A stretch of 64,000 nucleotides of DNA, taken from NCBI RefSeq assembly GCF_947493765.1, contig NZ_CANLSZ010000005.1, positions 124,001 to 188,000 on the forward strand, in the 5' to 3' direction. This document shows positions 4,496 to 7,672 of this stretch, one piece after another. Below the pieces are notes generated by a model that searched no databases, was not told where the DNA came from, and worked only from the letters and a program-made list of their open reading frames with translations. Origin of the DNA: an uncultured Arthrobacter sp. (GTDB taxonomy: Bacteria > Actinomycetota > Actinomycetes > Actinomycetales > Micrococcaceae). Numbering within the stretch: position 1 is the first letter of the stretch; each line of letters opens with the position of its first letter. The translations under genes were made by a program, and so were the position numbers.

Positions 4496-4579
4496 CGCTG
4501 TGACGCCCGTACGCCTCGAACCGGTGCGGCTCCCGCGCGGGGAGTCGCTCACGGATCGGTGACCCTTCACACTGAGGGC

Positions 4580-5266
4580 ATGGAGTGGACGCGTGCGAAG
4601 GACTGGCTCATCGGAGCCGCCGGCCTGCTGGTCGTGCTGGTGGTGGTGCTGACCGTCGCCTGGTTCGTGATCAGCGACCCCGTCGGACGGAGCGGGCCGG
4701 GGGCCACTCCGTCGCCGAGCAGCGAGGGACCGGTCGATGCGGGGCCGCCCGACGGGCTCGCGGAGGACGACGTGTGGCTGGCCGACGTCGTGCTGGAGGT
4801 GGGGACAGCAGTGAGCGGGGGCACCACGCTGCGGGACATCGACGCCGTGGGGCGGGATGTGCTCACCGGGCCTGACGGGCTCGTCGCGGGCGGGCTCGAG
4901 CTGGACGCCACGGTGCCGTTCGACGTCGTCGCCGAGGAACTCGGTGGCGGGGCGCTGGTCCGGGCCGGGGACGACGGCGAGGCCGAGGTGGTGCGGGGCG
5001 TCGAGGTGCTGGGCCGGGAGGTGCGCGTGGTCGCGTCCGGCACGGTGGAGGTCGACGCCGGTCGGCTCGTCGTCGAACCCCGCTCCATCGACCTCGGCGG
5101 GCCCGGCTTCCTCTCGGACGCCCTGGCCGCCGTCGCGCGCCGCGCCGTGACCATCGAGCACGACATCGAGGGTCTGCCCGAGGGCCTGGTGCTGCAGGAT
5201 GTGAGCGTCGGGGACGACGGCTTCCGCGCGACCTTCCGCGGTGAGGACGTGGTGCTCACCCGCTAG
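4580..5266 (+). CDS. LmeA/DUF2993-like membrane-anchored envelope protein
   Basis: About 228 residues: one N-terminal membrane helix (LIGAAGLLVVLVVVLTVAWFVI), a short Pro/Ser/Gly linker, then a domain with alternating beta-strand patterns (VEVDAGRLVVEPRSIDL, GLVLQDVSVGDDGFRATFRGEDVVL). This matches the phospholipid-binding-like DUF2993/LmeA family of actinobacterial envelopes. The ATG at 4580 has no ribosome site at proper distance, but CACACT sits exactly six bases upstream, the spacing of other probable leaderless starts here. An in-frame GTG at 4559 is the alternative. No functional partner is evident nearby. Confidence 0.6.
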   Translation: MEWTRAKDWLIGAAGLLVVLVVVLTVAWFVISDPVGRSGPGATPSPSSEGPVDAGPPDGLAEDDVWLADVVLEVGTAVSGGTTLRDIDAVGRDVLTGPDGLVAGGLELDATVPFDVVAEELGGGALVRAGDDGEAEVVRGVEVLGREVRVVASGTVEVDAGRLVVEPRSIDLGGPGFLSDALAAVARRAVTIEHDIEGLPEGLVLQDVSVGDDGFRATFRGEDVVLTR

Positions 5267-5482: not shown

Positions 5483-6151
5483 ATGAAAACTCCTTCCCTC
5501 CGCATGCGCAGAACCGTCTCCCTGAGTGCCGTCCCGCTGGCCGTCCTCCTCGCCGGCGGACTCGTGTGGCAGGGATCCCAGGCTGCATTCACCGACGACA
5601 CCAGCAACGACAACAACGTCTGGAGTGCGGGCAGCATGGACCTGATTGACGACGACAACGGTGTCGCCGCCTTCAACATCTACAGCATCGTCCCGACCCA
5701 GCGGGGTCAGCGATGCATCGTCGTCACCTCGTACGCTAATCATCCCAGCGAAGTGCGCCCCTATGTCCGGAACTTGACGAGTACCAAGAACGAACCGACC
5801 GACACGGCGCTCGAGGACCACCTCTTCCTCGACCTCGTACAGGGCGACGGTGGCTCATTCGGCGACTGCGAGGGTTTCGCGGCCGATGCCGCAACCGCCA
5901 CGGGCTTCGGCGCTGCGGGTAGGCAGCCGATCTCCGTCCTGAACCGGGATCACAGCAGCTTCGACAGTGGCGGTGCCGTCTGGCAGACCACGGGTGATAT
6001 CCAGACGACCGGTGAGAAGCGGACGTACAAGATCACCTGGGAATTCGACACCGACGGTCTGACCCAGGAGCAGGTCAACAGTCTGCAGAAGGGTACGGTC
6101 GGGGCCGAGCTGGTGTGGGAGATCCACTCGAGTGACCACCCCAACCCCTAG
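5483..6151 (+). CDS. SipW-dependent-type secreted protein (TasA/camelysin-like)
   Basis: A 222-residue protein. The N-terminus is basic (MKTPSLRMRRTVS), then a hydrophobic segment (LAVLLAGGLVWQG) and SQAAFTDDTSNDNNVWSAG, the AFTD-T-N pattern around the cleavage site of SipW-processed proteins such as TasA and camelysin. Two cysteines (in RCIVV and GDCEG) could form a disulfide. The mature part is mostly predicted beta-rich. ATG 5483 has GAGG 8 bases upstream. A signal peptidase of the matching type is the next gene, as in tasA-sipW pairs. It may be a fibre or surface protein; this is by family resemblance only. Confidence 0.75.
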   Translation: MKTPSLRMRRTVSLSAVPLAVLLAGGLVWQGSQAAFTDDTSNDNNVWSAGSMDLIDDDNGVAAFNIYSIVPTQRGQRCIVVTSYANHPSEVRPYVRNLTSTKNEPTDTALEDHLFLDLVQGDGGSFGDCEGFAADAATATGFGAAGRQPISVLNRDHSSFDSGGAVWQTTGDIQTTGEKRTYKITWEFDTDGLTQEQVNSLQKGTVGAELVWEIHSSDHPNP

Positions 6152-6244
6152 GCCGGTCCCAGCCACCGGCTCATCCCGCCTGGACAGCGGAACGGTCGGG
6201 GACTCGCTCTGATACTCGCACCAGCTCCCTCGCCCCCGGCCGGA

Positions 6245-7375
6245 TTGTTTCCGGTGCCCGCTTCCGCCGTCGAATGGTTCCGGACTATCTTCGGCGCCGA
6301 GGGCTGGGTCCTGTTGATCGCGGGGTTCGTCTCCCGCTTCTACCTCATCCTCACCGTCAGTCTCGCCCTGATCGGGGTGCTGCCCCTGCTGTGGGGTTGG
6401 CACGGCACGGTGGTGCAGAGCGGGTCGATGGAACCCCACATCACAGCCGGGGACGTGGTTCTGACCCAATCCCTGGATCCGGACAAGCCGGTGCCGGTCG
6501 GCCGGGTGGTGCAGTTCCTCGTGCCAGCCTCCGGACCGGCGGCCGAGCAGGAGACCTGGCTCCACAGGATCGTGGCGGACAACCTGGACGGCACCTTCGT
6601 CACCGCCGGTGATGCCAACCCCCAGGCGGACAGCGCCCCCCTGATCCGGGAGCAGATCACCGGGCAGGGCCGGCTCCTCGTGCCGATGATCGGACTCCCC
6701 GGTCTGTGGCTCGCCACCGGAGAGCTGGCCCTGCTCGCGGCGTGGACGGGGTTGTCGGCGCTCGCCGTCGTCGTCGTGCGGGTCGAGGGGCGGGTCGTCG
6801 CCGTGGCGGAGGCCGACGCCGGCCCGGACCAGGCGGATCCGCTGCCGGACGAGGAGCCGTATTCGCCGCTCGCCGTCTTCGACGACGACGCGCCCGGGAT
6901 ACCCCCGTCAGAGATCGACGGCGAGGCCCGCATGCGAGCCCTGCTCCTCCGGCTGGCGGTCGTTGTGGGGGTGGCCGCGATCCTTGCCGCTCTGGTGGCT
7001 GCCAGCGCCTCGGTGCTCTCCTCAGCGGCCTTCACGGCGTCCACCTCCAACACCGGGAACTCCTTCACCGTCGCCTCCGAGTGGCCGGTGCCCTCCGTCA
7101 CGCTCCAGGATTCGGGGCCGGCGGTCGAGGGACGCATCACCCTGAGCGCCGATGCTGCTGAGCCGCGATCCGGGATCCGGAGCGTCAGCATCGAGTACGC
7201 CGAGACCGGAGGCACCGTGTGGACCACCGTGTGCACCACGACGACGGCGCCGTACTCCTGCGTCCTGGACACCAGCGGTGCGCCCGAGGGCGTCTACCGG
7301 GGCCGGGCCATCGCGAGGAGCAACGCCGGTGCCACGGCCGTCTCGGAGGAGGTGGAGGTCCGGATCACCCGCTGA
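6245..7375 (+). CDS. Signal peptidase I (SipW/S26B type) fused to a substrate-like C-terminal domain
   Basis: A 376-residue protein. After an N-terminal membrane helix the catalytic serine is in QSGSMEPHI (Ser61). The base is His in WLHRIVA (His107), not Lys, as in the SipW/ER branch, and GDANPQ supplies the conserved Asp. Two hydrophobic segments follow (about 147-180). An acidic linker (190-226) leads to a third helix (about 233-257) ending in SSAAFTASTSNTGNSF (259-275), which looks like a SipW-type cleavage site. An Ig-like beta domain follows (VSIEYAETGGTVWTTVC...VRITR). The start is uncertain: TTG 6245 or GTG 6254, neither with a strong ribosome site. The upstream gene encodes the likely substrate. 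Confidence 0.8.
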   Translation: MFPVPASAVEWFRTIFGAEGWVLLIAGFVSRFYLILTVSLALIGVLPLLWGWHGTVVQSGSMEPHITAGDVVLTQSLDPDKPVPVGRVVQFLVPASGPAAEQETWLHRIVADNLDGTFVTAGDANPQADSAPLIREQITGQGRLLVPMIGLPGLWLATGELALLAAWTGLSALAVVVVRVEGRVVAVAEADAGPDQADPLPDEEPYSPLAVFDDDAPGIPPSEIDGEARMRALLLRLAVVVGVAAILAALVAASASVLSSAAFTASTSNTGNSFTVASEWPVPSVTLQDSGPAVEGRITLSADAAEPRSGIRSVSIEYAETGGTVWTTVCTTTTAPYSCVLDTSGAPEGVYRGRAIARSNAGATAVSEEVEVRITR

Positions 7376-7402
7376 TTGCACTCGGCCGAACCTCTCGTGT
7401 GC

Positions 7403-7672
7403 TCAGCAGGCTTCCAGAGCGTCCAGGTCATCCAGAGCGTCAGGGCTGAAGAGGTTGTCGAGGAGACACGCCTGTTCGGCGGTCAGCGTCTGCCGTCCGG
7501 CGGCGACGAGCTGGCGGTGCCACCACCTGGCGAGACGTTCCTCGCCGGCGTTCACGGGCCGGATCGAGGACGGGGTCCGCCCGTAGTGGGCGTGAAAGGC
7601 CGCCAGGTCCTCCAGATGACGCTTCCACGAGAGGCCGGCCCGCTGGGCCCGGTCGGTAGGGTCGTCGATCAT
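7403..7672 (-). CDS. Small helicase-associated-domain-like protein
   Basis: 89 residues from ATG 7672. The core SWKRHLEDLAAFHAHYGRTPSSI...ARWWHRQLVAAGRQTLTAEQACLLDNL has the spacing of aromatic and charged residues seen in the helicase-associated (HA) repeat, a small putative nucleic-acid-binding helical domain. The frame stays open to 7873, but the upstream part has poor composition. The ATG at 7672 overlaps the stop of a short upstream frame (TGATG), favouring it. Function unknown; convergent with the signal peptidase gene. Confidence 0.5.
   Translation of the reverse strand: MIDDPTDRAQRAGLSWKRHLEDLAAFHAHYGRTPSSIRPVNAGEERLARWWHRQLVAAGRQTLTAEQACLLDNLFSPDALDDLDALEAC

Follow-up and report, generated by a model that had tools for sequence, protein, structure and literature searches.

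What is a signal peptidase doing with the signal of a secreted protein inside its own polypeptide chain? The question is raised by a locus at which a SipW-like peptidase runs on, in a single reading frame, into a third membrane helix, a motif like that of the secreted protein encoded just upstream, and an Ig-like domain. The locus lies in a window of 64,000 nucleotides, the whole stretch of DNA that was analyzed (G000:C5:124001-188000 of a 2.99 Mb genome), and its closest named relatives at this position are Arthrobacter and other Micrococcaceae. A preliminary description had proposed that the peptidase is fused to its own type of substrate, and that it either cuts itself to release a surface domain or holds the substrate-like part as a tethered pseudosubstrate regulator. 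The parts of the fusion and of its upstream partner are as follows.

5483..6151, plus strand: free TasA-like (camelysin-type) substrate, 222 aa, with a SipW-type signal (P1 A34, followed by A35 and F36); ORF, model and VIA-align.
5585..5632, plus strand: putative donor strand of the substrate, A35-G50 (F36 = P2', W47 = P13'); pattern in 29 free substrates and the reported TasA strand (PMC9674648).
6245..7375, plus strand: peptidase-signal-Ig fusion, 376 aa; ORF, TIGR02228, Pfam and codon bias.
6296..6391, plus strand: transmembrane helix 1, residues 18-49; structure model and hydropathy.
6425..6427, plus strand: catalytic Ser61, in SGSMEP; invariant in 42 of 42 rows of fusion alignment A2.
6563..6565, plus strand: catalytic His107, in WLHRI; invariant in 42 of 42 rows of fusion alignment A2.
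6725..6814, plus strand: transmembrane helix 2, residues 161-190; structure model and hydropathy.
6815..6919, plus strand: acidic, variable cytoplasmic linker, residues 191-225; alignment and low-confidence model.
6920..7012, plus strand: helix 3, read as an internal signal peptide, residues 226-256; model, free-substrate profile and a separate-gene cargo with the same signal in L042.
7025..7030, plus strand: predicted scissile bond between A261 and A262; analogy with the reported TasA site (F at P2', PMC10269814) and a small P1 in 41 of 42 fusions.
7028..7066, plus strand: putative donor strand A262-F274 (F263 = P2', F274 = P13'); position counts and the TasA/TapA literature, as cited below.
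7094..7366, plus strand: cargo, a single Ig (Big_7) domain, residues 284-374; Pfam and model.

Judged by its sequence, the enzyme is an S26B (ER/archaeal-type) signal peptidase with predicted activity. The fusion narrowly passes the TIGR02228 model for S26B signal peptidases (52.6 bits, cut-off 51.85) and is below the cut-off of Pfam S26 (PF10502; 15.8 against 22.9). The peptidase would work like SipW, yet lies outside the SipW equivalog family, scoring 29.8 against 190 bits with the Bacillus model NF046067. Its sequence matches among solved structures were human SEC11C (E = 7.6e-4) and two SEC11A chains (E = 0.008 and 0.017), and a Foldseek search with the fusion model also listed the SipA (E = 8.9e-5) and SPC-C (E = 2.1e-4) peptidases. 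The TIGR02228 match, the structure model and a catalytic dyad that is invariant in all 42 aligned fusions bear out the earlier claim of a Ser61/His107 peptidase running on into a third helix. The start codon is uncertain, with TTG at 6245 or GTG at 6254 in frame and no in-frame ATG. A second S26B-type peptidase is encoded in the same genome (G000:C2:345609-346016; L051, 1033-2187, minus strand; TIGR02228, 57.9 bits). It has a long C-terminal region that by eye is histidine-phosphotransfer-like, and it adjoins an ORF that by eye is response-regulator-like.

Behind helix 3, the window fusion reads SSA, then the predicted cut, then AFTASTSNTGNSF. The third helix had been said to end in the motif; both are present, but the helix stops at residue 256 and the motif SSAAFTASTSNTGNSF starts at residue 259. 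The parallel drawn with the upstream protein is confirmed by three approaches. The alignment score of SSAAFTASTSNTGNSF with SQAAFTDDTSNDNNVW of the upstream protein was above all 2000 of 2000 segment shuffles. A 17-column position matrix, built from 20 unique motifs of free substrates without the window's own, scored the internal site at 32.4 and the runner-up position in the fusion at -1.6. A search of the whole genome with A3, a free-substrate profile headed by the window's upstream protein, found two places: the upstream gene (1.9e-78, expected since this gene is a member of the profile) and the internal site of the fusion (window 6926-7072, E = 9.9e-6). Together, the shuffles, the matrix and the genome-wide match rule out a chance motif. 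Among 763 ORFs from 80 loci, matrix scores above 8 fell, by our judgment, on peptidase ORFs or on motifs directly behind a helix, and many ORFs of the latter kind are known by the motif alone. We also rejected a plain type I signal, given the report that E. coli LepB cuts poorly where P2' is aromatic (PMC10269814).

The Ig-like beta domain that had been described behind the motif is present. Big_7 narrowly passes its Pfam cut-off over residues 284-351 (25.0 against 24.1 bits), and single-chain structure prediction models an Ig-like sheet after helix 3. Between the two, residues 256-279 have pLDDT values below 50; this stretch without confident structure fits a flexible, reachable cleavage site and does not imply access in cis. 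Third-position G+C is 0.90 in the peptidase, the linker and helix 3 and 0.91 in the Ig part, and this evenness leaves a frameshift junction unsupported. Leftover Ig repeats past the stop codon were considered and rejected, as all four tblastn matches at E < 1 lie on the single Ig domain.

The upstream partner resembles TasA in the fold of its predicted structure but not in sequence. VIA-align placed its model (mean pLDDT 78.6) with TasA 5of2 (Z 10.2, rmsd 3.2, 143 residues aligned), TasA 5of1 (Z 9.8), the TasA fibre 8aur (Z 7.7) and the archaeal bundling pilus 7ueg (Z 6.3), so that the top four rows are TasA entries and this pilus; the fifth row had a Z of 5.9. Foldseek alone also ranked TasA first but weakly (E = 4.7e-3), with no match at 0.001. 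The sequence scored 13.6 against 450 bits with the TasA model of NCBIfam and 12.9 against 22.5 bits with Pfam Peptidase_M73, and profile A3 retrieved no TasA chain from the PDB sequences at E 1. The cleavage site of the protein reads SQA before the cut and AF after it, and F36 is invariant across the 28 rows of A3.

A search for this domain order in actinobacteria, which the preliminary description had recommended, recovered the fusion both among related genomes and in public collections, with many soil actinobacteria among its carriers. Of 147 related genomes, at least 15 contain it (G000, G006, G011, G016, G018, G021, G029, G030, G042, G045, G062, G065, G067, G099 and G108), with one decayed copy in G016; the count is a minimum, as 69 of the 147 gave a match and part of these were opened. 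The substrate gene family is found in 22 of the 147 genomes, including all 15 with the fusion, as a remnant only in G016 and split across two frames in G011. This co-occurrence has a Fisher value of 1.4e-15, in which kinship is ignored and unopened genomes count as fusion-less. From the public named collection, 80 loci were kept, 52 of them opened individually and 28 covered by the ORF scan alone. A third helix with a site behind it was present at 41 of the 52 opened loci, a number that takes in L073 and L074 (short cargo frames), L089 (contig end) and L106 (bare tail); the sites are the best-scoring matrix positions, hand-set in six rows. Nearly all 41 belong to Actinomycetota and one is labeled as an Acidobacteria MAG, and the peptidase is unfused in the Bacillota rows L099, L103 and L104. 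Within the order, profile A1 matches 188 of 396 genomes. Its best 30 loci, which include the window and three genomes already counted, comprise 16 that by eye have a third helix and a site-like end. In the open-licence PMC literature, we found no description of a signal peptidase fused to a substrate signal, and the fusion is a variant of the SipW/TasA/TapA kind for which no earlier account was found there.

The G016 locus (L036, about 6996-7610, minus strand) has a peptidase frame without helix 1 and cargo, together with the substrate remnant. Its neighbors are similar to those in the window, and the cassette appears to be decaying. An ORF near this locus resembles the upstream gene at 4559-5266 of the window, which itself matches an LmeA-like phospholipid-binding family (35.5 bits, cut-off 27.3).

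What follows the cleavage site varies among the fusions: Ig, LamG, ice-binding-like and RCC1 cargo, a bare tail of 17-20 residues, or the substrate family itself. Pfam cut-offs were passed by Big_7 in L057, L058 and L066, by Ice_binding in L069, L070, L071, L072, L075 and L076, by Laminin_G_3 in L035, L043, L078, L079, L082, L084, L086, L101, L142, L145 and L147, and by RCC1 in L096. No Pfam cargo family was above its cut-off in L073, L080, L081, L090, L097, L105, L110 or L148, and the remaining cargo was labeled by eye, as was the ice-binding type of L073, L074 and L077. The proposal that the peptidase is fused to its own type of substrate thus stands for the export signal and falls short for the window cargo, which is an Ig protein and not a substrate. 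In Actinoplanes L105 (2975-4135), the cargo is indeed substrate-related, being matched by most free TasA-like substrates (BLAST E values of 3e-5 to 4e-24), and the fused cargo of the Streptomyces MAG L110 is substrate-like by eye. The opened Ig-type relatives mostly carry about 575 aa of cargo with several Ig repeats, and the window copy has one Ig domain. With this single domain, no ATG start and a decayed cassette in G016, the window copy may be a reduced form, and the long Arthrobacter fusions would suit experiments better.

At the other extreme, five fusions (L149, L151, L155, L156 and L106) stop 17-20 residues past the site, and each adjoins a TasA-like gene. The first four are natural bare-tail forms with 20 residues after the site. 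Their matrix scores are below zero (about zero in L106), and P2' and P12' are aromatic in all four, as is P8' in three of them. A further difference among cargo classes lies before helix 3, where twin arginines occur in 8 of 9 ice-binding-labeled fusions (L069-L077) versus 1 of 11 Ig forms. These stretches resemble Tat signals, and the ice-binding-type fusions may undergo Sec/Tat dual targeting of the kind reported for actinobacterial Rieske proteins (PMC5449189); basic pairs before helix 3 in several other cargo classes weaken this idea.

The same parts also occur as separate genes. In G008 (L042), a TasA-like gene comes first, then a gene for a 192-aa peptidase that has both the serine and the histidine box, and last a gene of its own for a 596-aa Ig protein, with STAAFTSKTTNTG at the end of its N-terminal signal. 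Against the fused cargo of relatives, this Ig protein reaches as much as 57% identity over 575 aa. The substrate-peptidase-Ig order is repeated in G078 (L046), with an Ig protein up to 49% identical to fused cargo over 572 aa; the peptidase frame is broken there (about 5750-6500) and split over two reading frames, through either decay or sequence error. Likewise, a separate LamG protein of Actinoplanes shares 34% identity over 722 aa with the fused cargo of Actinokineospora. Helix 3 and the motif behind it thus correspond to the N-terminal signal on a homologous protein that is secreted by itself, and helix 3 is most simply a signal peptide. The G008 peptidase is at most 29% identical to the other rows and groups with ordinary unfused peptidases, and the adjoining TasA-like gene is a weak match to the substrate family (2.6e-13). 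What G008 shares is therefore the cargo rather than the whole cassette. Its peptidase does not represent an ancestor of the fused one, and the G008 and G078 forms do not distinguish fusion from fission as the direction of change.

Cargo has been exchanged on the peptidase. In the peptidase tree, which left out L079 (domain pattern), L065, L092, L085 and L046 (broken peptidase frame), a single clade (SH-aLRT 98) holds 12 Ig, 9 ice-binding and 1 LamG fusion, so that cargo differs on closely related peptidases. The tree needs seven changes between the fused and unfused states, two of them forced by well-supported branches, and the number of fusion events is unsure since 33 of the 82 inner branches have values below 80. 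Large ORFs adjoin unfused peptidases at L091 (6567-10928, 1454 aa), L102 (6224-9619, 1132 aa) and L098 (6315-8138, 608 aa); these have a SipW-type motif behind a helix and are possible separate cargo.

Within a TasA fibre, each subunit is reported to donate residues 28-38, the stretch directly behind the signal, as a strand to its neighbor, with F29, I32 and F39 as named contacts (PMC9674648); in cleavage-site numbering, F29 is P2' and F39 is P12'. TapA is described as a complete Ig domain that donates its N-terminus, and residues 44-57 of the B. subtilis protein alone as enough for biofilm (PMC10151520). Among the 42 fused tails, P1 is small in 41, P2' is aromatic in 38 (with 3 more one residue later), and P12'/P13' is aromatic in 30 and aromatic or large hydrophobic in 40; aromatics are absent from P4' to P11'. 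The 29 free substrates (20 unique) have an aromatic residue at P12'/P13' in 28 cases and none from P3' to P11'. The P2' counts arise partly by construction: F at P2' was part of the pattern that selected the free substrates, and the fused-tail sites were assigned with a matrix that takes in P13' or, in six rows, manually. Under a matrix-free rule that still requires an aromatic P2', position +10/+11 is aromatic in 24 of 40 rows, 7 of the rows being mis-registered. The correspondence with TasA is partial: the second aromatic lies mostly at P13', not at P12', and contact I32 has no counterpart, with a hydrophobic P5'/P6' in 5 of 42 fused tails and 0 of 29 free substrates. Curtobacterium-type and Glycomyces tails fit the pattern more poorly. 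The window tail matches two of the three named TasA contact positions (F263 and F274) and leaves P5' unmatched. The window cargo probably carries part of the polymerization strand of the substrate. It is also a complete Ig domain (Big_7 and model), as would be expected of a TapA-like initiator; other fusions carry other cargo.

We favor, with a probability of about 0.5, a self-processing polyprotein in which a TapA-like strand donor is fused to its own SipW-like peptidase and starts a TasA-like filament. The locus would be a two-gene filament cassette. Gene 1 would encode the TasA-like fibre subunit with its SipW-type signal, and gene 2 a SipW-like peptidase joined by a cytoplasmic linker to another secreted protein, whose own SipW-type signal is retained as helix 3. 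The first two helices would place the Ser/His domain outside, and helix 3 would exit again; from these helices and the arginines before helix 3, we infer that both the active site and the cleavage site face outward. The enzyme would act on the upstream subunit in trans, and its own A261-A262 bond would be cut in cis or between neighboring copies, freeing an Ig cargo whose new N-terminal strand, AFTASTSNTGNSF, resembles the donor strand of TasA. As TapA does in Bacillus, the cargo would offer this strand to the TasA-like subunit that comes first, and since its complete Ig fold could not accept a strand in turn, it would start, and perhaps anchor, the filament. Self-cleavage with release of a surface domain, as raised in the preliminary description, is the reading that agrees best with the conserved site, with the predicted topology and with cargo encoded by genes of its own, the cut itself being predicted. 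As a tentative generalization, possible but short of probable, such polyproteins would be widespread in actinobacteria, with the peptidase making a donor-strand initiator by cutting its own C-terminal signal and also processing the subunits.

Self-cutting could also release an ordinary matrix or adhesion cargo, the conserved residues satisfying the peptidase only and no strand being donated. The cargo kinds (Big_7, Laminin_G_3, Ice_binding and RCC1) are typical binding domains, homologous cargo is encoded by separate genes with the same signal, and TasA contact I32 is unmatched. However, the aromatic or large hydrophobic residue kept at P12'/P13', with none of the aromatics between P4' and P11', lies beyond the expected reach of the peptidase, and the bare-tail forms have nothing to release; we regard this explanation as unlikely, if still credible. 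A doubtful variant dispenses with the cut: the intact fusion would offer its strand to the first TasA-like subunit while the peptidase helices anchor the filament. The fusion would then be a direct membrane anchor, and a role in anchoring or assembly has been described for TapA (PMC10151520). An uncut tether would have no need, though, of the small P1 and aromatic P2' that are kept across divergent fusions, and the donor strand of TasA is reported to start at the new N-terminus (PMC9674648).

The remaining explanations fare worse. A pseudosubstrate tail seated in the active site to regulate the peptidase would agree with the reported inhibition of E. coli LepB by TasA-derived peptides (PMC10269814) and with the occurrence of short-tail forms. 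The model, however, gives no confident placement of the tail in the active site, with pLDDT below 50 over residues 256-279, and the conserved pattern extends out to P13', farther than cleavage alone would call for. Moreover, large cargo domains stand behind the tail in most opened members, and the same signal is found on separate secreted proteins. The tethered regulator of the preliminary description is therefore very improbable. To a chance resemblance, or an assembly error that joined two neighboring genes, we give practically no credence. Peptidase and Ig protein are in fact neighboring genes in G008 and G078, but fusions recur at 41 of 52 opened public loci, coding bias is continuous in the window and the profile match holds genome-wide; conservation excludes such a merger for the family.

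If the self-processing reading is true, export, maturation and nucleation are combined in one molecule, lineage-swapped cargo decides what the filament base binds, and some lineages have been reduced to a bare strand. The natural fusions also suggest that TasA-type donor-strand filaments extend into Actinomycetota. In Bacillus, overlapping genes are said only to hint at an association of TapA, SipW and TasA, a link described as otherwise open (PMC10151520); natural fusions, together with separate-gene, cargo-swapped and bare-strand forms, make this hint testable. A peptidase with a built-in substrate would further be useful to catch a SipW-type enzyme bound to its substrate.

Several known systems share parts of this arrangement. 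Actinobacterial Rieske proteins are reported to have two Sec helices, a cytoplasmic loop and a third helix that exports a domain (PMC5449189). The likeness extends to twin arginines before helix 3 in the ice-binding-type fusions, which the window fusion lacks. The Rieske proteins have no peptidase and are not known to undergo natural cleavage behind helix 3. Archaeal bundling pili (Pyrobaculum, 7ueg) resemble the upstream protein in subunit fold, with a Z of 6.3 that is in the range possible from shared arrangement only; no fusion was archaeal among the rows examined. The sipW-tasA, calY and capP genes of Bacillus cereus likewise provide a SipW-like peptidase, camelysin-type subunits and a separate, reportedly SipW-processed assembly factor, but all as separate genes, and CapP is described with DUF4047 and repeats and without an Ig domain (PMC13082335). 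The tapA-sipW-tasA system of Bacillus subtilis also has an S26B-type peptidase adjoining a TasA-fold subunit and a second SipW-signal protein with an Ig domain. The window's peptidase and subunit miss the NCBIfam SipW and TasA models (29.8 of 190 and 13.6 of 450 bits), and, in contrast to B. subtilis, the peptidase and the second protein form one three-helix polypeptide with exchangeable cargo.
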